NCBI GenBank assembly: GCA_963402885.1
Contig: OY727102.1
Span: 20,336,001-20,400,000 of the forward strand
Reading direction: 5' to 3'
Length of the DNA stretch: 64,000 nt
Source: Antedon bifida
Lineage: Eukaryota > Echinodermata > Crinoidea > Comatulida > Antedonidae
Positions 30,430 to 64,000 of the stretch are shown one piece after another; positions within the stretch are counted from its first letter, which is position 1, and each line of letters starts with the position of its first letter. The notes below the pieces were generated by a model. It was given only the letters and a program-made list of their open reading frames with translations. It made no database searches and was not told where the DNA came from. The position numbers and the translations under genes are program-made.

Positions 30430-33400
30430 TTAACTTGGTCCTATGACCCCCATACGATGTAACACAGTATATGTGCACATAACGTTAGTGTATAACAATT
30501 TATGGGGGCATATGTTGGTAACACTATAATATGTGCACATATAGCCATTATATCGAATAATAAATTAATTAAAATAATAAAAATGTCAATATTTTGAAAA
30601 ATGTTCCCCTTTATTTGAAATTTTTATTAAAAATTTACCACTTTTCTATGGCCCTATAAGATGATGATAACACAATATATGCGCATATATGGCAATATTG
30701 CATAATTATTGAATTAAAAAGATGGATATTTTGAACAATTTTCGAAAAAATCCCTGTAGGCCTACTAACAGTACAGGGAAATTTTCGAAAAATAGAAAAT
30801 TTCCGACCCTTTTATTTTTTTTAAATAACTAGTTACTATGGCCCTATAAGATGATGATAACACAATATATGTGCATATGTCAATATTATCGCATAATTAT
30901 TGAATTTAAAAAAGTGGATATTTTGGGCATTTTTCGAAAAAATCCCTGTACTATAGCACAGGGATTTTTTTTAAAAGATTTTTAAGAAAATTTTCGACCC
31001 TTTTATTTTTGGACAAAACTGCTTAATATGGCTCTATAAGATGCTCTAAAGCAATATATACCCATATTATTGCATAATAATTGAAATTGAAAAAGTCGAT
31101 ATTTTGGGCATTTTTCGAAAAATCCCTGTACTATAGCACAGGGATTTTTTCGAAAAATGGCAAAATTTCGACCCTTTTATTTCTCGACAAAACTGCTTAA
31201 TATGGCTCTATAAGATGCTACAAAGCAATATATACCCATATTATTGCATAATAATTGAATTTTAAAAAGTCGATATTTTGGGCATTTTTCGAAAAATCCC
31301 TGTACTATAGTACAGGGATTTTTTTTTATAAATGGCAAAATTTCGACCATTTTATTTTTCGACAAAACTGCTTAATATGGCTCTATAAGATGCTACAAAG
31401 CAATATATACCCATATTATTGCATAATAATTGAATTTTAAAAAGTCGATATTTTTGGCATAGTACAGGGATTTTTTTTTTAAAATGGCAAAATTTCGACC
31501 CTTTTATTTCTCGACAAAACTGCTTAATATGGCTCTATAAGATGCTATAAAGCAATATATACCCATATTATTGCATAATAATTGAATTTTAAAAAGTCGA
31601 TATTTTGGGCATTTTTCAGAAAATCCCTGTACTATAGTACAGGGATTTTTTTCAAAAAATGGCAGAATTTTGACCCTTTTATTTTTCGACAAAACTGCTT
31701 AATATGGCTCTATAAGATGCTACAAAGCAATATATACCCATAATATTGCATAATAATTGAATTTTAAAAAGTCGATATTTTGGGCATTTTTCGAAAAAAT
31801 CCCTGTACTATAGCACAGGGATTTTTTCGAAAAATGGCAAAATTTCGACCCTTTTATTTCTCGACAAAACTGCTTAATATGGCTCTATAAGATGCTATAA
31901 AGCAATATATACCTATATTATTGCATAATAATTGAATTTTAAAAAGTCGATATTTTGGGCATTTTTCAGAAAATCCCTGTACTATAGTACAGGGATCTCT
32001 TTCAAAAAATGGCAGAATTTTGACCCTTTTATTTTTCGACAAAACTGATTAATATGGCTCTATAAGATGCTACAAAGCAATATATACCCATATTATTGCA
32101 TAATAATTGAATTTTAAAAAGTCAATATTTTGGGCATAGTACAGGGATTTTTTTTTAAAAATGGCAAAATTTCGACCCTTTAATTTCTCGACAAAACTGC
32201 TTAATATGGCTCTATAAGATGCTATAAAGCAATATATACCCATATTATTGCATAATAATTGAATTTTAAAAAGTCGATATTTTGGGCATTTTTCAGAAAA
32301 TCCCTGTACTATAGTACAGGGATTTTTTTCAAAAAATGGCAGAATTTTGACCCTTTTATTTTTCGACAAAACTGCTTAATATGGCTCTATAAGATGCTAC
32401 AAAGCAATATATACCCATATTATTGCATAATAATTGAATTTTAAAAAGTCGATACTTTGGGCATTTTTCGAAAAAATTCCTGTACTATAGCACAGGGATT
32501 TTTTCAAAAAATGGCAAAATTTCGACCCTTTTATTTTTCGACAAAACTGCTTAATATGGCTCTATAAGATGCTACAAAGCAATATATACCCATATTATTG
32601 CATAATAATTGAATTTTAAAAAGTCGATATTTTGGGCATTTTTCGAAAAATCCCTGTACTATAGTACAGGGATTTTTTTTTATAAATGGCAAAATTTCGA
32701 CCATTTTATTTTTCGACAAAACTGCTTAATATGGCTCTATAAGATGCTATAAAGCAATATATACCCATATTATTGCATAATAATTGAATTTTAAAAAGTC
32801 GATATTTTTGGCATAGTACAGGGATTTTTTTTTAAAAATGGCAAAATTTCGACCCTTTTATTTCTCGACAAAACTGCTTAATATGGCTCTATAAGATGCT
32901 ATAAAGCAATATATACCCATATTATTGCATAATAATTGAATTTTAAAAAGTCGATATTTTGGGCATTTTTCAGAAAATCCCTGTACTATAGTACAGGGAT
33001 TTCTTTCAAAAAATGGCAGAATTTTGACCCTTTTATTTTTCGACAAAACTGCTTAATATGGCTCTATAAGATGCTACAAAGCAATATATACCCATAATAT
33101 TGCATAATAATTGAATTTTAAAAAGTCGATATTTTGGGCATTTTTCGAAAAAATCCCTGTACTATTATAGCACAGGGATTTTTTCGAAAAATGGCAAAAT
33201 TTCGACCCTTTTATTTTTCGACAAAACTGCTTAATATGGCTCTATAAGATGCTACAAAGCAATATATACCCATATTATTGCATAATAATTGAATTTTAAA
33301 AAGTCGATATTTTGGGCATTTTTCGAAAAATCCTTGTACTATAGTACAGGGATTTTTTTTTAAAAATGGCAAAATTTCGACCATTTTATTTTTCGACAAA

Positions 33401-33800
33401 ACTGCTTAATATGGCTCTATAAGATGCTATAAAGCAATATATACCCATAATATTGCATAATAATTGAATTTTAAAAAGTCGATATTTTGGGCATTTTTCG
33501 AAAAAATCCCTGTACTATAGCACAGGGATTTTTTCATAAAAATGGCAAAATTTCGACCATTGTATTTTTCGAAAAAAATGCTTAATATGGCTCTATAAGA
33601 TGCTACAAAGCAATATATACCCATATTATTGAATAATAATTGAATTTTAAAAAGTCGATATTTTGGGCATTTTTCGAAAAAAGACAAAATTTCGACCCTT
33701 TTATTTTTCAAAAAAAACTGGTTAATATGGCTCTATAAGATGCTACAAAGCAATATATACCCATATCATTGCATCGATATTTTGGGTATTTTTCGAATAG
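30430..33800. repeat. Satellite, ~175-bp monomer with internal palindrome and higher-order arrangement
   Basis: About 19 head-to-tail monomers are marked by ATGGCTCTATAAGATGCTA, GCAATATATACCCATATTATT and GACAAAACTGC. Most hold the near-perfect palindrome TCCCTGTACTATAGTACAGGGA flanked by A/T runs. A shorter monomer (~153 bp), lacking the left palindrome arm, recurs at about 31460, 32130 and 32815, i.e. every ~4 monomers (~680 bp). The leftmost units (30430-31020) are clearly more divergent. The short open frames in it are by-products of the repeat. Confidence 0.93.
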
Positions 33801-33825
33801 GAATTTTTCAAATGGCAAAATTTCC

Positions 33826-34497
33826 TCTTTGTCTTGTGTTGGTTGCATCTTTCCTCTTTGTCTTGTGTTGGTTGCATCTTTCCCCTTTGTCATGTGTTGG
33901 TTGCATCTTTCCTCTTTGTCATGTGTTGGTTGCATCTTTCCTCTTTGTCATGTGTTGGTTGCATCTTTCCTCGTTGTCATGTGTTGGTTGCATCTTTCCT
34001 CGTTGTCATGTGTTGGTTGCATCTTTCCTCGTTGTCTTGTGGTGGTTGCATCTTTCCTCGTTGTCATGTGTTGGTTGCATCTTTCCTCGTTGTCATGTGT
34101 TGGTTGCATCTTTCCTCATTGTCTTGTGTTGGTTGCATCTTTCCTCTTTGTCATGTGTTGGTTACATCTTTCCTCGTTGTCTTGTGTTGGTTGCATCTTT
34201 CCTTGTTGTCATGTGTTGGTTGCATCTTTCCTCGTTGTCTTGTGTTGGTTGCATCTTTCCTCGTTGTCATGTGTTGGTTGCATCTTTCCTCTTTGTCTTG
34301 TGTTGGTTGCATCTTTCCTCGTTGTCATGTGTTGGTTGCATCTTTCCTCGTTGTCTTGTGTTGGTTGCATCTTTCCTCTTTGTCATGTGTTGGTTGCATC
34401 TTTCCTCTTTGTCATGTGTTGGTTGCATCTTTCCTCGTTGTCATGTGTTGGTTGCATCTTTCCTCTTTGTCATGTGTTGGTTACATCTTTCCTCTTT
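33826..34497. repeat. 29-bp minisatellite, 23 copies
   Basis: The unit is TTTCCTCGTTGTCATGTGTT followed by GGTTGCATC. It begins where the satellite reads GGCAAAATTTC. Copies differ mainly at two sites, CTC[T/G]TTG and GTC[A/T]TG, in all four combinations. Because 29 is not a multiple of 3 and the unit lacks stops, all three + frames are open. This is not coding evidence. Confidence 0.95.
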
Positions 34498-35518: not shown

Positions 35519-38500
35519 TCAAATTCTGTCAAAGGTCAAGGATTTTCTTGCAGCCAATAAAGCACTGATCCCATAATTAGTGAGTACGTTGCTGTTTAGT
35601 GTTACCTGATCATTTGTGGAATTAAAGAAGTTGAAATGGAATGGTCCATCAACCTGAACAACATCTAATATCTGCTGCCATCTTAGATGAGGAAGGCATA
35701 AGATGTATGCAAGCGACTTAGTGTCTGACAACCATACATTAACAGCAGCAGTTCCATCATCGATCAAAACTCTGAAATAACACATTTTTTTCCAGATCAT
35801 TATACTGTGGGGTAACAGTTATGAGCGCTCACTGGCTAAACCCAGGGGCCCCTGAGCAGTGGCCAGAGAAAAACAGGCATTAAAATATGTCGAAAAGAGA
35901 TAAAAAAGCTTGAGGCTTCCAGTGTTGGAGGGTCACTTATGGTTCCTAAACCTGGAGCCTCGGGCCTCTGTATTACACTACTGTCTTACTGTACATCCCA
36001 ATCTATGGAATTGGGGTGTATGTGGTTTAGTAGTGGCAAAGTGTTTTATCAATGGTCCTTCTGTGACATGTTAATGATTGAATACATTTTAATGCATTCA
36101 ATGGTATAATCCTGTTTGATTTCTTTTCACATGATTTTTCATTAAATTCCATATGAACAACATAACATTGACTACAACAAGTAAATAAGTTTACCTTGCT
36201 TTAAAACTCATTTCACCCTTAGCAGCCTGCGATTGTGCTGAGCATCTACACTGATTAGATCTGCACATATAGCATATCCATCTGTACAATAATAAAACGG
36301 TAACAGTAAGCGGAAAACTATGTAGCTTGTCTTACATATCATCTGTATCTATCCTGAGCGGAAACCCGCCCGTCCGCTCGGCATTGTGTGTAAATGGTCA
36401 TAAGAAATAACATAGACACTATATATTTTTATTACTGTTACCGCTCATCTGTTTAAATTTGCCTTTAAGCTCAGTCTACACTATAAAACTAGTTTGACAA
36501 AGTGATATGTCCAAATATGGTAGTGATATGACATCATCATGTCCATATATAGGCACATCACATGTTTTGCAACATAATGTTAATAATATAAATTCATTTC
36601 ACACATCTACATCTACAGAATGTTATCTGCACATAATATCAGCCATTTGGCAAAGAAAATAATAAAAGAAGAACTAGAAAAATGTACTGTACTACTTTTA
36701 CAATGGCCACAGCAACTTTGCCAACAGTAGTTCAAATGTGTGTAATGATGATGTTAATACTTTACTGCAGTAACTCTGATGATACAAAAGTATAAAGGAT
36801 TACTGCAGTAAACCGAAGATACTGCAATAAAATCTGTTGTAACCTTACCTGATTTCTAGACTGTATATTGTATTAATGTATCCATTTAAAATAAAATCAT
36901 TCTCTTTGTTTCCAGAAAGAAGTGAGTGCAATATATGAATGACATATCTTGGTGGAGCTTTAGAGAGGTCCTTTGTATCAAATAAGTTTGTTGTGCTGGG
37001 TAAAAAAAAAAGTTGTTGTTATATATTATAAATGAACAACTTCTCCAGGCAGTTATATATCAGTTTTGAATAAACAAAATAAAATGTATACAATGTAATA
37101 TTATCACATCTGTGATACCATAAAAACAACAAAAAATTGCCCAAACATGCATAACATTATAAAGAATTTGAGAATAAATATCAATATAGTTTCTCAAAAA
37201 ATTGTATCTGGTTTCAAATGGATGTTTAAAAATAAATGATACTTGGAAACTGGTTTAACAAAAAAGTTTTTTTTAACATTTATTTTTAAATATTAATATA
37301 TTTGTTACTGAGTAGTGGGTTTCATTATTCATGTAAGATCAAAGAAATATTTAGAATTAAATTTTTATCTAGTATATTATTTTAAAGAATATATAATAGG
37401 TCAACTTACCTATCATCAACACTACTGGGTATTTGTAATACCTGTATTGATGTTAAAGGTCAACTTACCTATCATCAACACTACTGGGTATGTGTAATAC
37501 CTGTATTGAAGTTAAAGGTCCACTTACCTATCATCAACGCTACTGGGTATTTGTAATACCTGTATTGAAGTTAAAGGTCCACTTTGACAACGTAACCGGC
37601 CTTTGTAACTATCAACTTCAATTCCTCTACAAAAATAAAAATGTCTACATGAATAAAATTAAAGGAAACATGATTTGGATAATGTACATTCTAGCTTTGT
37701 ATTGATTATAATATCTGTAATTTATGCACTTTAAATTACAATTAAAATTAGTCATTTTTTTTTTCATGAAGTTTTGGAAATTCAGACTGATTTTCATAAC
37801 ATTTCAAATAAAACATAGCAATTTCAATGCACTTTTATCTGCTAATCTTATTAACATAAAGAAAGAATTTGTTTTTGCTATCATTGGTGTACCTATCAGT
37901 GTATTCTCTTAAATCTAGCAATTTCATGGTAGCGCTCCTTCTACAAAATGTGTGATGTGCCCAAATATGGTAGTAATATTCCCAAATATGGTAGTGATAT
38001 GACATCATCATGTCCATATATGGGTACATCACATTTTGTGTCACATAAAGTTTGATGGTGTAGACAGAGCTTAATGATAGCAATGTAGTGATTATATGTA
38101 AACCAATCTTCAAAGTATACGTACTGTAGATATAATACAGCTTGTGGAACAAGTCCTAACGGATACTGTATCTTAGGACATTTGATATATATTGACAGAC
38201 TATCTGTTGCATCAAGACTAGATTTCATATCCACAATCCTTACATTCATGGATACTGTATCTGATTCGGTCGGTTGGTGTGACTTGTTACTTGAATCACA
38301 TGATACAATCACTCCAATCAAAGAAACAATACCTTTGGATGATTTAAATCTATAAAAACAAAGATGCTTATATGAAGATCCATCAACTATGACAATATGT
38401 ATATTGCAGAACAATATAAATGGAGTCTTTTCTGAAGAGGAATGGTATGACATCATAATGTCCATATATAGGCACACCCCTTTTTTTTCACATAAAGTTT

Positions 38501-41500: not shown

Positions 41501-44500
41501 ATTTGTGAGTAAAAACTTTAAGTTAGTTTTACCGACCCGATATGTTACTGGTCAAATAAGTTCATATCCACCATATTTTGTCAAACTAGTTTGATAGTGT
41601 AGAAAAAGCTTGAAAGATAAGTTTACTAGACTGTCCACACTAACTAATCAATGGATTTGGTTAAAACAAAACATTCAGTGTAAACAAGGATTTAATAAAA
41701 AAGGTACACATAGGTAAACATAACAGGAGGCAAAAGAACATAAGGAAAGAAAACACAGTAAAAAACCCACAAATCAAAGGAATACATTGCAATCATTCAA
41801 GCATAACTTACTAATGGTGACCTGAATGGTAAAACCTCAACACAAGATCGCATACAACATACAAGATAAACAACCTGAAAGAACAATTTGTAAAACCTTT
41901 AACATAAAACATTAATGTAAAAGTGAAATGTACAATACAATTTAAAGATCATTTTTACCTTTGAAAGTTTTTTGAAGTGAGCATTGTATACAGTAACATA
42001 GCAACCAGCCTTAATGTTGGGCACAACACAGCCAACATCTTTATTAAGGTATGTCATATACAATCTATAAAGAAGGACAACAGCAATAATAAATGACAAG
42101 AAAAGTTTGCAATTAAAAATGACAATATACAAAACCAGAAGCACAATACTGTATAGGAAACTTTAAAGCTCTGCCTATACTATCAAACTAGTTTGACAAA
42201 AATAGTGTGATGTGCTCAAATATGGTAGTGATATGCCCGAATTAGTGATATGACATCATTATGTCCATGACACACACACATTTTTCTGTCACAAAAAATT
42301 TGATAGTGTAGACAGAGCTTTACACATGTAAAGTACAGTATTGATGTTTTTGTTTAGTTTTGGCAGTAAAACTCTTGAAATCAAATCAGATATGGAGAAA
42401 TAGATTACTAACCCAAAAGAAAGTACAAATCGCTGTAAACACCTCCAATCATAAAGTGGTTATCAGTAAAGTTGGTGCTAAGTAGGATACTGTATGTCAA
42501 CAGTGAGGTTATAAGTAATTATTTAGTTTCGAAACTAATTTTGATGAGTTATATTAATTTCTCTAATAGCATTCATTTACCTTATACTACCGTCTAGTTC
42601 ATAAATGCCAGCCTTAGCATCAATTATATCTGTCACCATTCCCTAAAAATACAATGGTTTGTAATATCATAATTGTTATATAAATATATATTTTGTTCTG
42701 ATTCCATTAGATATTTGGAATTTCATCTCATTGTATCTTTAAAGCCTTGTCTACACTATCAAACTTTATGTGACAAAAAAAATGTGATGTGACCATAATT
42801 GACATGATGATGTCATATTACTTCCATATTTGGGCATACCACTACCATATTTGGGCAAACCTGTTTGATAGTGTAGACAGAAAATAGATATGTTTATCTT
42901 GGTCTTACTTGGTATGATGTACCAGCTTCAGAATTGCATTCCTCAGTACAAAGTGAGTGTTTATTGGACTGGTCAGTGGCTTGTGGTGGTTTATTAGACT
43001 GGTCAGTGGCTTGTGGTGGTTTATTGGACTGGTCAGTGGCTTGTGGTGGTTTATTGGACTGGTCAGTGGCTTGTGGTGGTTTATTGGACTGGTCAGTGAC
43101 TTGTGGTGCATCTGGTACCATACAGTTTGTGTCTTCATCCTGTTCAAGTGATTGTAATTGGCTTTCATCTTTTACTGATATCTAGAAACATAGGAGGAAT
43201 CACCTCCATTATGGTATACTTAAAGGCAAATCCAAATGGGGATAGAATTTTTTGGTTTTTAGTAACATTCACAAAAACACTATTTTGAGGAACCACCTTT
43301 AATATACAAATAAAATGAATACCTCAGTTTTACTTGTGCAAGCATATACCTTGATTTTTTTTGGTTTTAGCAACATTCACAAAAACCCTATCTTTAATAA
43401 TACAATTTAAAAGAATACCTCAGTTTTACTTGTGCATGCATATACCTTGATTTTTTTTGGTTTTAGCAACATTCACAAAAACCCTACCTTTAATAATACA
43501 ATTTAAATGAATACCTCAGTTTTACTTGTGCAAGCATATACCTTGATTTTTTCTTCCAAACCCTGCAATTAAACATTACTATGTATTGAACAGTATTGTC
43601 ATTTCTAATAAAGCTCCTCAAAAACCAGAAACCTCCCCAGATAATCATCTCCATTAAAATGCAATTTCTCCTGATTATTTTTTTATATTAAACAAAATTT
43701 TGGTCCGTAAGCATTGTTTAATGCAGCAAAATGAAATGATTTCAATTGGTATGTTGGTTGGTAATTATAAATAGTAAATACTTACCTTTGTGATTGTAGT
43801 GGAAATCATGTTTGACAGGATAATATACTTGTGTACTTGTATTTCAGTGTACAACTTCCACTGTTGACCCTTTGAAAAAAGTATAAAGGATTTGTTAATT
43901 GTTGCAACTAGAAAACACAACGGTACCACAACCCTTCACTCAGGAAGTACGATTTTTAAATTAACATGCTTCCCTGAAATCCCCATAATTTTTGTTTTTT
44001 ACACTCGGCTGGTCAAGACTGTAAATCGTTTTCTAACTAGGTTACTAGTACCGGCATACATGGTAATACGACAGACAGTTAGTTTACTACACATACCTTT
44101 GCAACAACAAAGTGTCGGTTATGTCGCCATGACAACTCAAATAAAAACATTTTACTTCCATTCTTTCTAAAGATAAAAAACATAAAATGATATGATACAA
44201 TTAAATTAATATTTAATAATTAATTGCGCAATGAAATTCTTGCATAATAATTACAAATCGTGCAAATCATTGAAATTTGGCAACTACCCAGGCCTAGCTC
44301 TACTCGTTCTAGGCCTGGTCTAGCTAGTAAAAACTACTAATAGGCCTAGCTAGTTTAGCTCCCTCTTAAGCATGGTAGTGTAGCACCTTGACCCGGTCCA
44401 TTCAGACAAACAACAACAAGGCTAGCTAGCTAGGCCTAAACTAAATAAAACAGAAAATAAATCTTACTCTACAAGTGGACTTTTACAAACAACGAGTCCT

Positions 44501-48343: not shown

Positions 48344-51300
48344 TCATTCTGTGGCAACATATTTGAGAGCACCAAAACCGTATTTTTTGGACAGATCTTT
48401 TCTGAATTCATCTTTTAATATTTTCAAACATCTGTATCAAATGAAAAATAAAATATATTTAAAATACTGTAATTTATCAATGCCAATTTAAAAAACATAT
48501 ATTCTCATTAATGTGGTTCTTCTACTTTAGATTATTACTTTTATATAAAATACTATTTATTATTTTTAACAGATATATAAGTGATCATTTTAAGTCCTTG
48601 CCCTGTTAGGATCACTTCACTTTCACCTTAGTTCACTCTCTAGTTAATGATATAACCTTTTTGACAAAACCAGACACTGTGACCCAGAAAATGATGTCCA
48701 GTGGCTTTAAATATAATAAACATTGAACTTACTTTCTGTATGTTGAGCTTGATCTAAATTTTGCAATATCAAAACTTGGGGTATGCGGCATGTGGATAAT
48801 GAATGCGTTTGGAAGCACTACAAATTCATACCTAAAACAATAATAGGGAATCTATATACATTATGGTACAACAATACAGCTGTATCAAATCATATACTGT
48901 ATGTACAACAATCCATGAAGGCATGATTTGGTCATTTGATTGCAGAATTGTGTCACATGATATTCAATAGATATTCTATTGAACTATTCATTATGTTATC
49001 GAGAGTGCAATGGAAAAAATAATTTTTAGTTGATTTATTCCTTTCAGTGATACATAAAAAAGGGAGCCGCACTGAAAGATGACAACTTCTAACTATTTTC
49101 ATCTCATGAAATTATTTGTACTATTGCACTCAAAAACGTTCACTATTGTATAATAATTGATATGTGTGTGTATTGCTGATTTCGATATTTAAAGCTATTA
49201 ATCATGTTAAAGTCTGTTTTATAGAATGTTGTATGAGCCAATTGTTGTTATTATTTATTTATGTGTTTTGTGATGCAGCATCTACTAAACAAGTACAACT
49301 TACCCCTGGGCGTCAATTTCCATAATCTGTGCAACCTTGTTCCATCCAAAGCCAACGAACCGTTTATCATATTGAGGGCAGTCTTTCTTAATAACAATAT
49401 ATGGTTCAAAATCAGTATCCCATTGTATCTAAAAAAGGAAAAAAATGAACAAATCTGAGCATAGATAAGACAATTACTGTATAATTAGTCATTTTTTTTA
49501 TGTACAAAGAAAATAAAAGAAATTGTCAATTTCTTATTATTATTTCTTCTTTATAATTTGTAGCCTCTCTTCAGTCAAATGAGGGCCCAATGTATAGTAC
49601 TATGATGAGTTTGTGACAGTGGCTGTGTGTGAACTAGTACACCTAACTAGTAATTTGTCATAATGGAAAAAAAGACATACTAGTATAAGTAGTGGAGTCT
49701 TTCACTGTAGGAAGAAGACGTACACTATTCCATTACAGAATTTATTTATTTATTTATTAAGGCTTGCCCACCACAAGATGTTTATCTTCATCCTTCCGGG
49801 CATCTCCTTCATTCTCTGACCTATTATCATTATATTTATGCATTTTTTTTGCCAGAGTTTGTAAATAAATGTTATGAAATGAAAAAAGGATATGTTTACC
49901 TTATATGGCATTGTTGATATCCTCCATTTTGGAAAGTTTGTCGGAGCGTGACCCTTCTGCCACACGTGATAACGAAAGGTAAACAATGAACCCATGTCCA
50001 ACATGTGTAATAAATCAGTTTTGGATTTTGGAAAATTGATTCTGTAGTGAAGAGTTTCAAAAGCAGGAACAACCAAAGCCTGTAAAACAATTTATTTTGT
50101 CACAATTAGTACTCATTTACATTTTCTTTAATTCAGGAGTTTAATTGAGCATAAAATGACCAGCCTTAAGCTCTGTCTACACTACTAGTTTTAAAAGTAC
50201 AATCATAGAACAAAACAAAAAAGAGAATATTAAACTTAGATAGTATAAAGACACTCTTAAAGCTCTGTCTATCAAACTTTATGTGAAAACAAATGTGATG
50301 TGTTTGATAGTGTAGACAGAGCTTTCTATAGTGCATACTTAAAGCCCTAAATAATTTATGTATAATACCGTGTTAATACAGTACCTTATTAGTATTGGCT
50401 ACATCCAATGTACTGATCATCTTTCTAAGATAGTTATATAATCCATACATTGGTAGAAAGTCTATGTCAGCCAGGAACACATACGGCGTCTTGACCTCGT
50501 TTAAAGCTGTGTTGCGTAGGTGATTAACAGGGTAAAATTGCTATAGAAACAGACAGCAATAATGCACATGAAAGTGAAAAATGGTCGTTTTTTAATTATT
50601 TTATAATTTGAACTTATACTATAAAAAGCAGAAATTTCCAAAACCCAAGGGCTTTTAAAAAAAAAGGCAAAGATATTTGCATTTAAAGTTGCTATCAAAA
50701 GAAAAACATACAATAAAAGGCTAATGTAAAAAAGTGTAAAAGTCCCTTTCTTTGAGAATAATTCTACTTTTATAGTATTTTGTAAAGAAAGTGAAACATA
50801 CATTAAAACAGCATAAAAGGACAAAATATAATTTAAAAGAGTCAAGGATAATCTCATAAACACTAACTCTTTTCTACTTTTTAATATTTCGGATGTTTGT
50901 ACATGAGAGAACTTGTAGCATTAATTATAACAGATAAATAAATTCAAGCAACCTACCCCATCTTTATAAACAACATGATAACTAACGTCCTTTCTACTTC
51001 TTAATATTTCCGATGTTTGTACATAAATTAAAAACTGTTGAGCATCAGCGTCTGACATGTAAACTGCAAGACTCATTGGTCCTGTAAAAAAAAAAAAAAA
51101 TTTAATATGAATTGTGAATCAGTTTGATTAATGATATTTCGCTATATTGGTCTTAATTTCAATATTCATGATGTTTATTGACATTGGCTGTAGTGTGTGT
51201 TTACAGAGCAATGGCCTTTTCCAGCATAAAATAATGTTGTTATTAAGACTAAATTAGTGTTTACAAAAAATAAATAAAACAATAAATAGTTTTAATTTTA

Positions 51301-54300
51301 CAATAGCTATGATTGTATTAATAATCAGTACCTTAAATTATATTTCAACAAAGTATATATTTGCACCTAAGTAGTAGAAGTAGACCTACCATCCCAATGT
51401 TTACAGAGAGCTTCTAGCATTTGCAATCTATCCATTGAAAGCTGAGCTACTAACGTCACATCATTGCCATCTGGTTTCTGAAAAAAAAACATAGCATGCA
51501 TACCTCGTCAAAGGCTTTATTTACAATCAAATCTACACTGAAAGTTCTAGGCCCTGTCTACACTATCAAACTTGATATGACAAAACAAATGTGATGTGTC
51601 CATATATGGACATGATGATGTCATATCACTACCATATTTGGGCACATCACAATATAGATGTGTCCTGTGCATCAGTATTCTTAAGTAACTTACTGGTGTG
51701 TACTCATAATCTAGATAATATAGATGTCTCCTATGCATCAGTATTCTTAAGTAACTTACTGGTGTGTACTCATAATCTAGATAATATAGATGTCTCCTAT
51801 GCATCAGTATTCTTAAGTAACTTACTGGTGTGTACTCATAATCTAGATAATATAGATGTCTCCTATGCATCAGTATTCTTAAGTAACTTACTGGTGTGTA
51901 CTCATAATCTAGATAATATAGATGTGTCCTGTGCATCAGTATTCTTAAGTAACTTACTGGTGTGTACTCATAATCTAGATAATATAGATGTGTCCTGTGC
52001 ATCAGTATTCTTAAGTAACTTACTGGTGTGTACTCATAATCTAGATAATATAGATGTGTCCTATGCATCAGTATTCTTAAGTAACTTACTGGTGTGTACT
52101 CATAATCTAGATAATATAGATGTGTCCTGTGCATCAGTATTCTTAAGTAACTTACTGGTGTGTACTCATAATCTAGATAATATAGATGTGTCCTGTGCAT
52201 CAGTATTCTTAAGTAACTTACTGGTGTGTACTCATAATCTAGATAATATAGATGTCTCCTATGCATCAGTATTCTTAAGTAACTTACTGGTGTGTACTCA
52301 TAATCTAGATAATATAGATGTGTCCTGTGCATCAGTATTCTTAAGTAACTTACTGGTGTGTACTCATAATCTAGATAATATAGATGTGTCCTGTGCATCA
52401 GTATTCTTAAGTAACTTACTGGTGTGTACTCATAATCTAGATAATATAGATGTGTCCTGTGCATCAGTATTCTTAAGTAACTTACTGGTGTGTACTCATA
52501 ATCTAGATAATATAGATGTGTCCTATGCATCAGTGTTCTTAAGTAACTTACTGGTGTGTACTCATAATCTAGATAATATAGATGTGTCCTGTGCATCAGT
52601 ATTCTTAAGTAACTTACTGGTGTGTACTCATAATCTAGATAATATAGATGTCTCCTATGCATCAGTATTCTTAAGTAACTTACTGGTGTGTACTCATAAT
52701 CTAGATAATATAGATGTGTCCTATGCATCAGTATTCTTAAGTAACTTACTGGTGTGTACTCATAATCTAGATAATATAGATGTGTCCTGTGCATCAGTAT
52801 TCTTAAGTAACTTACTGGTGTGTACTCATAATCTAGATAATATAGATGTGTCCTGTGCATCAGTATTCTTAAGTAACTTACTGGTGTGTACTCATAATCT
52901 AGATAATATAGATGTGTCCTGTGCATCAGTATTCTTAAGTAACTTACTGGTGTGTACTCATAATCTAGATAATATAGATGTGTCCTATGCATCAGTATTC
53001 TTAAGTAACTTACTGGTGTGTACTCATAATCTAGATAATATAGATGTGTCCTATGCATCAGTATTCTTAAGTAACTTACTGGTGTGTACTCATAATCTAG
53101 ATAATATAGATGTGTCCTATGCATCAGTGTTCTTAAGTAACTTACTGGTGTGTACTCATAATCTAGATAATATAGATGTGTCCTATGCATCAGTATTCTT
53201 AAGTAACTTACTGGTGTGTACTCATAATCTAGATAATATAGATGTGTCCTGTGCATCAGTATTCTTAAGTAACTTACTGGTGTGTATTCATAATCTAGAT
53301 AATATAGATGTGTCCTATGCATCAGTATTCTTTCTCTTCTAAAATCATAGCACTCATCAGACTCGTCTAGGTCAGGTGGCTATCAGATACAAACAACACA
53401 TGATAAAAGCATAAATGAATGATGGTCAACAAGGGTCAAGGGTCAGTGGGCTGTAGCCATTCTTGGTTGCCGTTGCCATTGCCCATCAATAAATCAAAGA
53501 GCACATCAAGGTAGTCTAAGGCTCTGTATACACTATCAAACTTTATGTGTCAAAAAAATGTGATGTGCCCATATATGGAGATAATAATGTCATATTACTA
53601 CCATATTTGGGCACATCACACTTTTTTTGTCAAACTAGTTTAAATCGTTTATAAAATCGTAGCATTCATGGAACTATATCTTGGTAAGGTCAGATACACA
53701 AAAATATATGACATTGACATAAAAACATAATTTCATTTCTACATAGCTTGTTTTATTACCTTAGTTTCTTGTGTTGATATGTTGCTGTTTAGATGTTCAC
53801 AGCTAAATAATTCTCTTCGTAGTAAATTGCCGTCATATTCCAGAAAACTTAGGTAAAGGTTGCGAAAGAAATCAATGTGTTTGTTCTTCACCTGCAACTT
53901 TAATGGTGAGTTCCAGTGGATGGCTTGAATGTCACTGAGTTCAGTGTAGCATAGCTAAAGAAACAACAGAATTTTACACAGGATTTTATTAATTTATACT
54001 AAGCAGCGTGGTCAAATGTCAATTTTATGTATGTGTGTTTTATTTAACCTTTCTGCTTCTGTTTTGAATCTCATCTGGTATCTGGTTGTCCTGTCAATGG
54101 TATTCTTTAACAATGCGCGTCCCCTATTAATCCTGTCATGGTCTATTCGTCTATTTATTTATTCTTTTTATGGTATCTTAATTTATTAACTTGTTTGTAT
54201 TGGGCCTCCTATTACAAACCCTTAGGGTTCTGGAGGCCCCTTGGGTTTCTGGAGGCCCCTATCATCTTTAAAAATATGTCTTACTCCTGGTTTGTTTTGT

Positions 54301-57300
54301 GTTTTTGTTTGTTTATGAGATGAATAAAGAGAAATTATGTTATGATATGATTCAACAAATTGACATCATCATGAAGTATAATACATTAGTGAATTAAGCC
54401 AATTACATTGAATTGGATAGTACAGGCATTAAAGTTAACATTTTATGGATTCAAGATTTAAGAAAATGTTATTCTAGATAAAACATACATACATTAATTC
54501 ATGATACTCTGCAATTAAAGTTACATTACATGGAAGTGAGCAATTTAGCACATTAAAATAATTTTTTTTTTAAATTGGAAATTTAAAATTTATAAATGAA
54601 AATTTAAAATTGATTAAATTTAAAGTTAATTAATAAATAAATTAATATGATAGTTACCTCACTCCGAGTATGTTCACTTAACTGTACATTCCATGAACAA
54701 GGTAGGTTGTACACTATGTGAGGATGATTCTTAATAACAGCATTGAATATATCCTAAAGAAAAAAAAAGTACAATGTCAATGATCTCTGTGGTCACTAAT
54801 AAGTGCACTCGTCCCATATTTCAAAATAAAATATATTCTAGACACCTTGAACCATATGCAAATCTGGATGGAAATTATTTTCTAATTGATGCTATGCTTG
54901 GATATTTTTTAGGCCTAATTGTGTAAAAAAACCAATGGCATACATTATATAATACTGTAACATCATTGTGAAAAAAAAAGATGATATACCTGATCTGCTA
55001 GTGATGTGGATAATAAACTCATGAGTTCTTTCTCAGCAATCAACCTCCACATTTTCATCCAATCAATTTGTCTGAGCCTGTCAAGGGCCAACAGAATCAA
55101 ACCAGTGTTATAACCCCTACCCTGTAAAAAAGACATCATCATAGCAATTTAATACATTAGGAGAATAAACATTATAGAACATCTGACATCAGTAGTACAT
55201 GATGACCTATGAATAAATACTGCTACATAGGTTATTTCATGCCTGATGTTACTGGTGCCCAAAATATTTGCGCACCCTTTTTTCCAAGATGATTGTTATT
55301 GGCCAAAACCAACACAGTAGAACCTTCGTTTTATGTACCCTGGATTTTACGTCATGATGTCACATGTTTTTTTTTAGTAATTTATGTAACTTAAGTTTAA
55401 AATCCTATTTTTTACGTACATCTCTCGGTCCCGTGCTGTACTTAAAATGTAGGTTCTACACTACATAATATTTCTATGAACGAGTACTGTGCAGTCAACA
55501 ATATTCAATTGGACATTTCAATAATGCCTTGTGTGGTATAGACTTGATATTTATTGCTCGTTATTTCACTTGTACACACGATTGCTTATATCTTACCAGC
55601 GCTGGCCAGGGGTTATGTTTCTTCCAGATGGTACCTAGATACCAATCACTCTGGTTCTCAACAAGTCCAAACAGTTTAGGACTTGTCAAATGACGGAACA
55701 ACTGCCACAACTCGGCTATATCTCTTGCAAATGTTATGTCTGTGTCCAACACTATTACCTGAAAGAGGAAGTGGAAACCATCAGGGATCAGAAACGGGAG
55801 TTGGTTCCAGTGGCGTAACTTCTTTGAGCTTATGGAGCCCCTGAGCTTATGGAGCCCCTGAGCTTATGGAGCCCCTGAGCTTATGGAGCCCCTGAGCTTA
55901 TGGAGCCCCTGAGCTTATGGAGACCCTGAGCAGCGCCTAAAGGAAAAATCAGGCATTAAAGTATGTCGAAAAAGCTAAAAACACCTGAGGCCTCCAGCTT
56001 TGGAGGGCCACATAGGGTTCCTAAACCAGGGGCCTTAGGTATCTGTGTTACGCCACTGGTTCCTTACAAGAGGTTCAGCTGAAACGTATTATTGTTGAAG
56101 TTTTACTGTATTTATAAATAAAATATGTCCTAACACAGAAAAGGAAGAAAAGAATTCCATAGAATGAAAATACACAGTAATGCAATATTTTTGTTCCTAG
56201 AATTTATATGAACTCTTTAAAATCCCATGATCTTGGTAAAAACAAGGTCCCCTTTTACGCCCCCACTCCTGAATCCGCTCTTCTTAAAGTTACCTTTTCT
56301 AAATCTTTTGGTAATATTTTCATAAATACTAATTTCATTAATCCAAATATTCCAGAATAATGTTTGTTTGGAATCCAAGAAACATCACTCTGCAAAAAGA
56401 AAGAAAAATATTAAAATAACTTCATTTTCATAACATGCTCCTCAAACATCTGATGGCCAGCATACAGCAAGTATAAACGTATTCCTCTAGCTACAAAAGG
56501 ATCCATTCTTTAAGAAATGTCACAAACTAAATTGAATTTCTGAATAATTTTTAATAGTACTGTATATATTTTTATGATAATGATTGCCAGAAATTAGCAT
56601 AAGCTGAATTTGTTATTAAAATGTTTATATTTGTAATATAAGATAAATAATAAAAGATCTATATTTTTGTATTATCATTGTATCAATGTATTTTGTTGGC
56701 GACCCCTTTGTAAACAAGCCTTTGGGCCTAAAGTGTTATCCTCTGCTTTCAATGTTTAATTTCTCAATTTTAATGTTTGTATTATTCTATGTATTTATTT
56801 TCATTTTATATATTATGCTGTTTTATAAATTGTACTGTTCTTGGAAAGCAATAACTATTACTTACTTACTTATTTATGGTTTAATGTATCATACATTTGC
56901 ATGTATTCTGACTTGATTGAAACATACAGACAAAATGATGAACTTTATTAACGCATGTCCAAAGAATACCTTGATTGTCCAAAGTTCTTTAGAAGAGCAG
57001 TTTTATATTATTACTGACAGGGCTACCTTATTGAAAGAAAATGAAATAAATAAATTCACTTACCTTGTACGTTTCTGCTAAATAAAAACTAACTTCAACT
57101 AAAAGAAAACAAACAATAATATGATTAAAATCAATAATTCAAAGCTTTTCAAAATTGATATCCTTGCTATACCAGTATGGCTCAATTATCCATTTCACAG
57201 TCATGACTATAAGTACTGTAGGTAGCAGCTTATGAGTGCACATTTGAATTTGTTTTTATTTCTAATAATGAAAATAATTTTAAAGAATTTTCTTTTTTAT

Positions 57301-58789
57301 TTTATTCATTCATCTCAAAACAAGGACAGTACAAATGTACAAAAAAAATATATGAGTATTACAAATAACAGACAGAAATAGAGACACAAGACATCACATA
57401 TTATAGTTATTTACCTATTTAAACTTAAAGAAAAATAGTCAATTTTGGTTTGATTAAATTTAGCTGTTTATCTTGTTTTTTTTCATAAGCGAAATCATTA
57501 TTTTTTTAACCTTATTAAAACTACAAAATGGCCTATTAAAAATTTGATTTTATTCACCTTTATTTTTTTCATTTTTTGAGGGACAATACATCTTTAAATA
57601 CAATATACTTACGTCCTGGAAGATCCCATGTTTTGAACAAAGTGCTAAGAGTTAGTTGAGCTATTTCATCTGAGATAAAGTGAAAGTGTAGAGGATTTTT
57701 ACGATAGAAAAGAATGGATTTAATCAAGGTGATAACTTCACGACTTGAATTGTGACCAGCACATACTATTGCTATATGAATAACCTGTAAAAAACAGATA
57801 TGAAATGAATGATAATAATAATTATAATAGAATTATACTTTATTATATTATATTAAACACATAACAGGAATAGTATAACCAAGCTTGCTTTTAATAGTTA
57901 AAATGAATACAGCAGAAGTCCTTCTTTTGGAAAATTCATTACATTTTTTGTCACATAAAGTTTGATAGTGTAGACAGAGCTTTAGACTTTGGCCAATCAT
58001 ACCTCGCATTTTGGCATTGTTAGCTTACTCCGACAATCTGATTGGTTGACAGAAGATGATATATTTCGTTCTTCTTTGAGTTGTTCATACAATTCATAAG
58101 TATGTTGTAATTGGCTCTGAGATATTCTGTATAAAAATAGAAATATTATAAGTGCAATATAACATAATATAAATTAAATATAACATATAAACAACACAAT
58201 GAGATTGATACCTTAGCTGAGTTTTCAGCAACTGATTCTCATGTTCAGAATCTTGCACTTTCTTCTCCAAATCTAAATTTCTGTCCAATATTGGACCAAC
58301 ATTTCTTTGGTCTGAAATGTAAATAATATAAATAATAAAAAAATTATGCAAAATTAAATTCCACAAACAATCAATTTATGAATTGAATATGTAAATGTGT
58401 TTCTAGGCATTGTGCTGGTCGCTGTTTATACACATTCTATTTCTAATACAGTTCAAGTGCCAACAAGTTTTCCATTCTAAACCATGCAGTTAATACTGTT
58501 TGTTGGGGGTTTTTTTTTGGGAGGTGTAATTACTTCTTCCAAACTGTTTACTGTCACATATTATGTTTTAACCGGTTTGTAAATTGTGATGCAGTTTAAT
58601 AAAAAATAAAATAAATAAAGGTATGTATGTTGATAATCCTACACAGATGCTGTGTGAATTTGTAATCACAATTTAAAACTTACGTTGACTGTTGTTAGTC
58701 TTGCTGAAGTATAAACAAATAAGACATGTGGATATAAAAAGCAACAGTAGTCCCTTCTTCCAATGAATTTTCACAGCGGTCATGGTCAT
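48344..58789 (-). CDS. LARGE: LARGE xylosyl- and glucuronyltransferase
   Basis: LARGE is a Golgi type II enzyme. Its GT8-type and GT49-type domains alternate xylose and glucuronic acid to build matriglycan on alpha-dystroglycan, the laminin-binding glycan (family knowledge). Deduced exons: 58789-58684, 58311-58212, 58126-58003, 57784-57613, 57098-57064, 56389-56294, 55758-55597, 55121-54990, 54753-54658, 53954-53760, 53379-53278, 51477-51390, 51081-50957, 50540-50385, 50079-49900, 49428-49304, 48831-48733, 48431-48344. They total 2181 nt, 726 aa plus stop, close to the ~756 aa of human LARGE1. Visible parts are a signal anchor at about residues 13-28 after KIHWKK, a coiled coil at about 40-85, GT8 with VIVLDTD (DXD at 216-218), [10 protein letters not shown] and [12 protein letters not shown], and GT49 with FLADIDFLP (DXD at 536-538), GFGWNK and [11 protein letters not shown] 58789 is used because an in-frame ATGACC precedes ATG 58783. 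Exon 11 and what follows it are extraordinary (see the 66-bp array). Confidence 0.96.
50168..50326. mobile_element. Two foldback MITE remnants
   Basis: AAGCTCTGTCTACACTACTA at 50169 is an isolated end. A core-deleted copy at 50257-50326 has both ends (AAGCTCTGTCTATCAAAC and GATAGTGTAGACAGAGCTTT). They lie in LARGE intron 14. Confidence 0.65.
50863..50910 (-). pseudogene. LARGE: Degenerate duplicate of part of LARGE exon 13
   Basis: The bases match the exon 13 segment around 50983-51030 at a 120-bp offset (shared TTTCTACTT, TTAATATTTC, GATGTTTGTACAT on the + strand), with scattered substitutions. The copy lacks clear splice sites and lies in intron 13, so it looks like an old partial tandem duplication. 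Confidence 0.65.
51548..51652. mobile_element. Foldback MITE truncated by the LARGE 66-bp array
   Basis: The left end and core are present up to GGGCACATCACA. The next base already belongs to the 66-bp array, so the right ~35-40 bp including the inverted end are missing. Confidence 0.8.
51653..53335 (-). repeat. LARGE: 66-bp tandem array (about 25.5 units) made from LARGE exon 11 end plus its splice donor
   Basis: On the minus strand each 66-bp unit contains the coding end of LARGE exon 11 ([14 protein letters not shown]) followed directly by the donor CCA|GTAAGT and a few intron bases (TACTT), then returns to AAGAATACTGATGCA. Donor positions step by exactly 66 bp from 53278 down to 51694: the native one plus 24 copies. 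No unit has an indel or a stop in the LARGE frame. Units differ by a few substitutions that make RTH/RRH, RIL/RTL and a silent or Cys/Tyr-type change on the other strand. The native first unit is distinguishable by its upstream exon sequence ([17 protein letters not shown]). The left end of the array runs straight into a truncated foldback MITE. Confidence 0.97.
53519..53642. mobile_element. Foldback MITE, right end clipped
   Basis: It runs from GGCTCTGTATACACTATC to GTCAAACTAGTTTAAAT. It lies in LARGE intron 10, between the native exon 11 and exon 10. Confidence 0.72.
55316..55464. mobile_element. pogo/Tigger-like MITE, second copy
   Basis: CAGTAGAACCTTCGTTTTAT and AAAATGTAGGTTCTACACTA form the ends. 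The middle has TTTTACGTA words. It lies in LARGE intron 7. Confidence 0.6.
55800..56065. repeat. Dispersed repeat copy carrying a 17-bp x6 tandem
   Basis: GAGCTTATGGAGCCCCT is repeated six times at 55826-55927 inside a copy of the same dispersed repeat as at 35.8 kb, which has only one such unit. It lies in LARGE intron 6. Confidence 0.75.
57939..57984. mobile_element. Foldback MITE, end fragment
   Basis: TTTGTCACATAAAGTTTGAT then AGTGTAGACAGAGCTTT is a single right end, about 20 bp left of LARGE exon 58126-58003. Confidence 0.65.
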
Positions 58790-61600: not shown

Positions 61601-62947
61601 TCATACGTGTGCCTCCTTATGAATATGTTTTCTCAAATGTCTTTTCAAACGGCCATTTCGATTAAATTTCTTCCCACAATGTTTACATTTATAGGTGACT
61701 CCTGTGTGTATTCTCTGATGTTTTTTAAAATGGTGACTTCGTTTAAATTTTTTTCCACATTTTTCACATTCATAAGGTTTCTCTTTTTTGTGTTTTCTCA
61801 AATGTCTTTTCAGTGTAATTTTATGACTAAATTTCTTCCCACAATGTTCACATTCATGTGGTTTCTCTTTTATGTGTTTTCTTAAATGTACTTTCAAGGC
61901 AACACTTTGAACAAACTTCTTCCCACAATATTCACATTCATATGGTTTGGCTTTCTTCAAGTGTTTTCTCAAATGTCTCGTCAAACTCCCTTTATGAATA
62001 AATGTCTTCTCACAATGTTCACATTCATATGGTCTCTCTCCTGTGCGTATTTTTAAATGTGTTTTGAGACCATTACTTTGAGTAAATTTTTTCCCACAAT
62101 GTTCACATTCATACGGTTTCTCGCCTGTGTGTATTCTTAAATGTTCTGTTAAAGTGCTAGTTTGTTTAAATTTCTTCCCACAATGTTCACATTCATATGG
62201 TCTCTCTTCTGTGTGTATTCTTAAATGTATTTTCAGACCATGACTTTGAGTAAATTTTTTCCCACAATGTTGACATTCATATGGTTTCTCTCCTTTGTGT
62301 ATTCGCAAATGTTTATTTAAATCGGAAACTTGCTTAAATCTCCACTTACAATGTTCACATTCATATGGTCTTTCTTTCGTGTGCAATTTCAGATGTTCTG
62401 TCAAGTGGCTACGTTGCACAAATGTCTTCCTACAATGTTCACAGTCATATGGCATGTCTCTTATGTGTATTCTCAAATGCCTTTTTAGAGTACCTTCATG
62501 ATTAATTTTTTTCCCACAATATTCACATTCATATGGTTTCTCTCCTGTGTGTATTCTCAAATGTTCTATCCAATGGCTTTTTTTGTTCAATTTCTTCCCA
62601 CAATGTTCACATTCATATGGTTTTTTCTGCAAATGTACTTTCAATTGATCACTTTGCACGAAGTCCTTCCCGCAATGTTCACCAGGCACATCTTTAGTGT
62701 GTGTTTTTAAATGCTCTTTTAGAATGTCATTGCAATGGAATTCCTTTGCACAATATCTGCATTGATAGGTTGTCTGGTCTAAACACTTTGTATGTGTCTG
62801 GCAATGCAGCTCAAAATCATCTTCTTCATAAAATGTCTCTTCACAGTGTTGACATTGTAACTCTTTACTCTGTATATGTATTCCTAAATGTTCTTTTAAA
62901 GCATTTAATTCAAATTTCTCTCCACAATGTTCACATTCGTATTTCAT
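61601..62947 (-). CDS. C2H2 zinc-finger protein, 16 fingers, 448 aa
   Basis: This is a single open exon from ATG 62947 to TGA 61601-61603, probably a DNA-binding transcription regulator. Sixteen consecutive C-X2-C-X12-X3-H units are seen, mostly [10 protein letters not shown]...HLRIH joined by TGEKPYEC-like linkers. The first three fingers are more divergent (GEKFELN, EETFYEED, AKEFHCND). Finger 4 is damaged (first Cys and final His lost, linker shortened, around HLQKKPYEC). Finger 11 ends HLKIR instead of HLKIH. No KRAB, BTB or SCAN domain is visible. A short upstream exon may exist, since an A-run precedes the ATG. Such arrays evolve fast, and orthologue naming is not possible. Confidence 0.88.
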   Translation of the reverse strand: MKYECEHCGEKFELNALKEHLGIHIQSKELQCQHCEETFYEEDDFELHCQTHTKCLDQTTYQCRYCAKEFHCNDILKEHLKTHTKDVPGEHCGKDFVQSDQLKVHLQKKPYECEHCGKKLNKKSHWIEHLRIHTGEKPYECEYCGKKINHEGTLKRHLRIHIRDMPYDCEHCRKTFVQRSHLTEHLKLHTKERPYECEHCKWRFKQVSDLNKHLRIHKGEKPYECQHCGKKFTQSHGLKIHLRIHTEERPYECEHCGKKFKQTSTLTEHLRIHTGEKPYECEHCGKKFTQSNGLKTHLKIRTGERPYECEHCEKTFIHKGSLTRHLRKHLKKAKPYECEYCGKKFVQSVALKVHLRKHIKEKPHECEHCGKKFSHKITLKRHLRKHKKEKPYECEKCGKKFKRSHHFKKHQRIHTGVTYKCKHCGKKFNRNGRLKRHLRKHIHKEAHV

Positions 62948-63499
62948 GTTTTTTTTTTTGTTAAGGCAATGCCAATTACAAAAACAATAATCTGAAATAA
63001 TAATAATTTAGTTTAGTTTCATTCATACATAATTTTCAAAAACCAAAAATAAAATACGAAATCCATCGGCACATATAAATGTCAATGACTTATTTACAGC
63101 ACATCTTATCATGTAGGCCGATGGTTTGGAATGCATAAATTCATAATTATTACGTAATTAGTAAATCACATTGTATTTAGGCCGGCTTATACTGTTCCTC
63201 ACCAAACACAGGTGTGTTAATAAAGAATACGACAAAATATGACAAATGAAACAGTTTCTAGCAACTTATTTTATTCCAAATTATTTTTGTTTATTTGCAC
63301 AACCTGTACACTGGTACTACACTATGTCTATTTTTTGGCTATTTAAACTTTTAAAGATTGTTCAAACCATGGGAGCTTTTTGTATATACACTCTTTTAAA
63401 CAGTCTTTTATTGTTAAATAAATGATTTTAAAAATGTCTTCCCACAACATGGCCAATGTAAACTGTGTGTACTTTCTCAAATGATCATTGTTAAAGTTA
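62948..63499. other. Spacer between the intact and decayed zinc-finger copies
   Basis: AT-rich. Around 63430-63500 further decayed finger-like words (CACAACATGGCCAATG) may extend the pseudogene. Nothing else is recognised. Confidence 0.4.

Positions 63500-64000
<501 letters not shown>

Follow-up and report, generated by a model that had tools for sequence, protein, structure and literature searches.

A 66-bp array of 25 identical splice donors at an exon boundary of the crinoid LARGE gene, best read as a mirage-type minisatellite

An exon of the LARGE gene of Antedon bifida ends in a splice donor that is followed, at regular steps, by 24 identical copies of itself, each preceded by a copy of the exon end. 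The arrangement lies in the window, the whole stretch of 64,000 nucleotides analysed here, and raises the question of which donor the spliceosome uses and whether the protein is changed by the repetition. The 25-unit array is certainly a real repetition. Very probably, it is a recent minisatellite of the mirage type, in which the first donor is mainly used, the array is spliced out, and the product is ordinary LARGE. Mirages were described in amphioxus as tandem minisatellite-like copies of exon-intron boundaries, with regular splicing reported as undisturbed (PMC3087553, PMC3902484).

Host gene and anatomy of the array

The features on which the argument rests are given here in the reading direction of the gene.

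48347-57832, minus strand: ORFs of LARGE with matches to both catalytic domains (boundaries are those of ORFs, not of exons)
53519-53640, minus strand: foldback element within the intron preceding the native exon, related to the one at 51549-51651
53278-53379, minus strand: native LARGE exon of 102 bp, ending in phase 0, with its acceptor AG at 53381-53380
53272-53277, minus strand: native donor GTAAGT, phase 0, the proposed working donor
51651-53331, minus strand: 66-bp array, comprising the native unit, 24 extra units each with CCA/GTAAGT, and a 31-bp stub
51549-51651, minus strand: MITE-like foldback element without its outer left arm, aligned to the copy at 53620-53519 and to others in the window
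51390-51477, minus strand: following LARGE exon, preceded by TTTTTTTCAG and starting in phase 0, with its 3' end read by eye

By its sequence, the host gene is LARGE. Minus-strand ORFs match residues 3 to 620 of human LARGE1, in order and with gaps, in a search with the human sequence as bait. Three PF13896 matches lie downstream of the array, two of them above the cut-off, and the joined translations of the flanking exons align gap-free to the human LARGE1 chains 7zvj_A (E 5.6e-28) and 7ui6_A (E 7.8e-28). Together, the ORF matches, the structure match at the junction, and PF13896 place both catalytic domains, homologous to those of LARGE1, in the same order. Since the alignment is gap-free, the array occupies a site where LARGE1 has no insert; the junction falls directly before the DVTLVAQLS stretch. 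Genome-wide, at least six PF13896 matches fall in LARGE and in one other gene on contig C14, and the search with the 66-bp unit DNA returned at least 12 matches, none outside the LARGE locus. No second LARGE copy showing the ancestral intron is present among the matches listed in either search.

Along the minus strand, the starts of 26 units follow one another from 53331 at a spacing of exactly 66 bp, the last belonging to the stub that ends at 51651. TRF describes the same array as 51651-53332, period 66, 25.5 copies, with 98% matches and 0% indels. Each unit contains 54 coding bases of the exon end, then 12 intron bases beginning with the donor. All 25 CCA/GTAAGT donors are identical, and CCAGTAAGT occurs 25 times. 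When the native exon is read through, each of the 24 extra donors is in frame and is reached ahead of any stop. Most of what an earlier note had described from this DNA stands, including the LARGE assignment, the native exon at 53379-53278 ending in CCA/GTAAGT (donor at 53277), the exact period with 24 extra units, their openness in the LARGE frame, and the phase-0 start of the next exon at 51477. Its description of the unit as coding end, donor, and intron bases also holds, with the proportions revised from about 50 and 14 bases to 54 and 12.

Variation within the unit is confined to four positions, two of them silent and two changing the amino acid. The commonest unit type accounts for 12 of the 25 complete units, and the variants follow no simple higher-order period. 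The native unit is set apart at one silent base only: it reads GAA, and GAG stands in each of the 24 complete extra units, the pattern to be expected where homogenisation leaves out the edge unit. One antisense frame through the array is also open (51576-53342, plus strand, 588 aa).

The foldback element at 51549-51651 abuts the array stub directly, with one base shared or ambiguous, and may have helped to truncate the array. Such proximity is unremarkable, because the core motif of the family has 14,985 genome matches at up to one mismatch; many further copies with a hairpin core occur across the window. Other repetitive features of the window include a 30-bp array of five copies at 42959-43108, whose minus strand reads by eye as the 10-residue repeat PPQATDQSNK, and satellite-like blocks of about 152, 175, and 350 bp at 30696-33682 and 33821-34494, with a 29-bp array of 23 copies. 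A C2H2 zinc-finger ORF of 468 aa occupies 61601-63007 on the minus strand, and an 84-bp repeat at 63515-64000 resembles zinc-finger coding sequence.

Exon-end arrays elsewhere in the genome

The genome was searched as a chromosome-scale assembly of 315,563,634 bases in 27 contigs. Three copies of AGGTAAGT at steps of 30-60 bp occur at 74 places (35 + 39), which were grouped by hand into 15 arrays, with neighbouring clusters merged in two cases (C7 and C10) and C15:17912017 left outside the classification. Six of the 15 start in apparent exon ends. For seven others (L052, L059, L065/L072, L076, L077, L078, and L084), the printed stretch holds no clear exon. L058 has a possible exon, two extra donors that are not open, no Pfam match, and a best PDB match at E 0.24; it was omitted from the set considered below. 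Arrays at DUF2045 and C2-domain exons were found in a second search at steps of 60-90 bp. In total, the DNA of nine arrays of an exon end with its donor was examined, namely LARGE and eight others, one of which lies in the same window.

G000:C16:11963300-11964700, minus strand: MAPKAPK2-like array (L083), 51-bp unit, exon match E 6.7e-27
DHX8 array: 37-bp unit, exon match E 9.8e-20
Array whose exon is a weak match to Aa_trans (amino-acid transporter): 53-bp unit, E 0.016
Two arrays at exon-like frames without a Pfam match: 55-bp units
37398-37584, minus strand, same window: exon end with AG/GTAAGT, 59-bp unit, 3.2 copies, three donors, frame-shifting
DUF2045 array: 69-bp unit, exon match E 1.4e-9 (above cut-off), fetched in part
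C2-domain array: 66-bp unit, exon match E 8.8e-6 (above cut-off), fetched in part

Family support is weak or absent for four of the nine. In the MAPKAPK2-like array, which falls within the kinase activation segment, 13 exact donors follow one another every 51 bp, frame-keeping and open. The array at 37398-37584 probably belongs to CTC1, judging from a neighbouring ORF whose match (E 7.2e-5) is below the cut-off. At its seam, a nine-base near-repeat is visible, AGTGGACCT in the exon and AGTTGACCT at the donor. A third exon-end array in the window is possible at 43295-43552 on the minus strand, where a 96-bp array of 2.7 copies has a unit with AAG/GTATAT beside a short exon-like stretch after TTGCAG.

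Further candidates stand outside the nine. By-eye translation of 80-base strings points to an NHLRC2-like array (G000:C8:34299155-34301162, minus strand), with about two dozen copies at 80-bp steps, AG/GTAAGT, and a match to PDB 6g7w at E 6e-9. Another candidate from the same procedure has 73-bp steps and resembles a plasma-membrane calcium ATPase at E 0.061. Other places from the 60-90 bp search are C1:2677089, C9:684588, and C12:14096430, the last with a short MCM-like peptide.

Because the nine arrays were sought by their donors, they are silent on how often arrays avoid donors. A control with the reversed motif TGAATGGA at the same 30-60 bp steps gave 125 places (62 + 63); the 100 of these that were listed contain at least 21 arrays. 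The donor motif occurs 12,623 times in the genome and the control 15,844 times; steps of 60-90 bp gave 73 and 107 places, respectively. The idea that donors are hot spots of array formation was rejected on this comparison, since 15 arrays per 12,623 donor motifs against at least 21 per 15,844 control motifs leave no excess at donors.

The assembly also contains a mitochondrial genome (contig C27) of 15,844 bp and 26.9% GC. Its COX1 has five AAA at Asn places and four AGA or AGG at Ser places; with these places taken to be conserved, the usage matches the echinoderm and flatworm code. By reading of C27, nad4L lies between nad4 and nad5, a move of nad4L that crinoids share. Its size and composition fit the published crinoid mitochondrial genomes compared, which range from 15,792 to 15,916 bp, with 72.73% AT in Comaster. 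Together, these features indicate an echinoderm, probably a crinoid.

Donor choice and competing explanations

When extra donors are counted by exact donor strings only, they are in frame and open throughout LARGE (24/24) and the MAPKAPK2-like array (12/12), and in none of the cases in the CTC1-like array (0/2), L056 (0/3), DHX8 (0/8), L079 (0/12), and L082 (0/8). Within the fetched stretches, the counts are 1/1 for DUF2045 and 0/1 for C2. Each extra donor seen in six of the nine arrays thus shifts the frame or lies past a stop. As their use would break the product, these arrays should rely on the first donor. DHX8 is the best identified of these six, and the PDB titles of its relatives name the spliceosome. 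The open frame in LARGE, MAPKAPK2-like, and DUF2045 means that the protein does not force use of the first donor in these three. The simplest inference would be that the spliceosome chooses the first of many identical donors, in LARGE by analogy with the six. In-vitro work counts against first-donor choice, as among equal donors the one nearer the acceptor is reported to win. The passages of PMC8724738 consulted on this point do not state that the acceptor-proximal donor wins among equals.

On the favoured reading, a tandem duplication across the LARGE exon end and its donor would have started the array in mirage-like fashion, and slippage or unequal exchange may have enlarged and recently homogenised it. 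The spliceosome would mainly pick the donor at 53277, and the 24 further units would leave with the intron, yielding ordinary LARGE. The open frame can be seen as a by-product, because open coding sequence supplies 54 of the 66 bases and the period is by coincidence divisible by three. A rough simulation with random period class, phase, and intron letters, at 31% GC and with exon-part lengths taken by eye, indicates that about one array in six would keep the frame and lack stops by chance. It expects 1.4 fully open arrays where three of nine are seen (P = 0.15). LARGE entered the set on account of its openness; among the eight others, two are open (P = 0.36). Selection for an open frame was therefore considered and found unsupported, with openness no greater than chance in this rough model. 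Coding constraint within the LARGE array is likewise not indicated by its two silent and two changing sites.

Among the alternatives, noisy splicing would treat modest use of later donors as a cost, giving rise to a share of non-functional transcripts that are longer or degraded. The twenty-five identical donors in succession speak for it, and a passage of Ebner et al. (PMC3087553) was counted in its support. The per-motif frequency of arrays, about equal for donor and control motifs, speaks weakly against it, as it faintly suggests good tolerance of extra donors. We regard this cost as improbable.

The earlier note had raised a ladder of isoforms as one of two options. On this reading, many of the 25 donors would be used and LARGE would gain 0 to 24 added modules of 22 residues between its catalytic domains, with a possible effect of tuning matriglycan synthesis. 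All 24 extra donors are indeed in frame, open, and identical to the native one, and the point of insertion is the gap-free junction described above. However, this frame and openness are compatible with chance, two of the four variable sites alter the protein, and the same genome holds similar arrays in which later donors break the product. Amphioxus mirages are moreover reported as harmless to regular splicing (PMC3087553, PMC3902484). The ladder gained no support, and we consider it slightly more doubtful than noisy splicing. Of the note's two options, the better fit is the second, an intron filled with competing donors. If LARGE did use its other donors, the result would be a striking isoform ladder. 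In the most far-reaching version, the spliceosome would choose among the 25 donors to give a graded family of LARGE proteins with 0 to 24 modules of 22 residues, the MAPKAPK2-like and DUF2045 arrays would act likewise, and minisatellite length would become a heritable dial on protein architecture; we rate this lower still. Repeat lengths are often a weak point of assemblies, but an inflated copy number through misassembly is the least credible reading of all, since this assembly is chromosome-scale, the unit variants show no simple higher-order period, and the other arrays differ in unit and length.

Comparison with known systems

The mirage-type reading is grounded in the structure of the array. 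Its tandem units span exon, boundary, and intron (54 + 12 bases, including the donor), and concerted evolution is evident inside the array with the edge unit excluded, although GAA versus GAG is one site only. Amphioxus cases described in PMC3087553 and PMC3902484 include Adh3, the globins BflGb6 and BflGb9, troponin C, and PGBD5. As in LARGE, they span boundaries, carry splice signals, and are homogenised inside but not at the edge, with units of 10-160 bp. The LARGE array differs in its echinoderm host, in having 24 complete extra units where the amphioxus cases considered reach six or seven at most, and in its near-perfect, frame-keeping, stop-free units. In the literature searched, which covers a minority of subscription journals, no mirages by that name were found outside lancelets.

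Other systems share single features. Intron gain in potato (PMC4974935) likewise involved a tandem duplication across an intron-exon boundary that copied splice signals. A new intron arose there, whereas no new acceptor or intron is evident from the sequence of the LARGE array when read by eye. Internal tandem repeats in human segmental duplications (PMC2812944) resemble it as minisatellite expansions inside genes, but they are differences between paralogues. Human LARGE1 structures have no insert at the junction that holds the array here.

Each of these arrays is a natural experiment on the choice among identical donors, and in six of the nine the protein indicates the first donor. Donor choice among equals thereby becomes directly testable in vivo. 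The best reading files the LARGE array as a mirage, unusually long and frame-keeping, in a genome that contains several. Mirages would thus extend from amphioxus to an echinoderm genome, with several of them in conserved genes.
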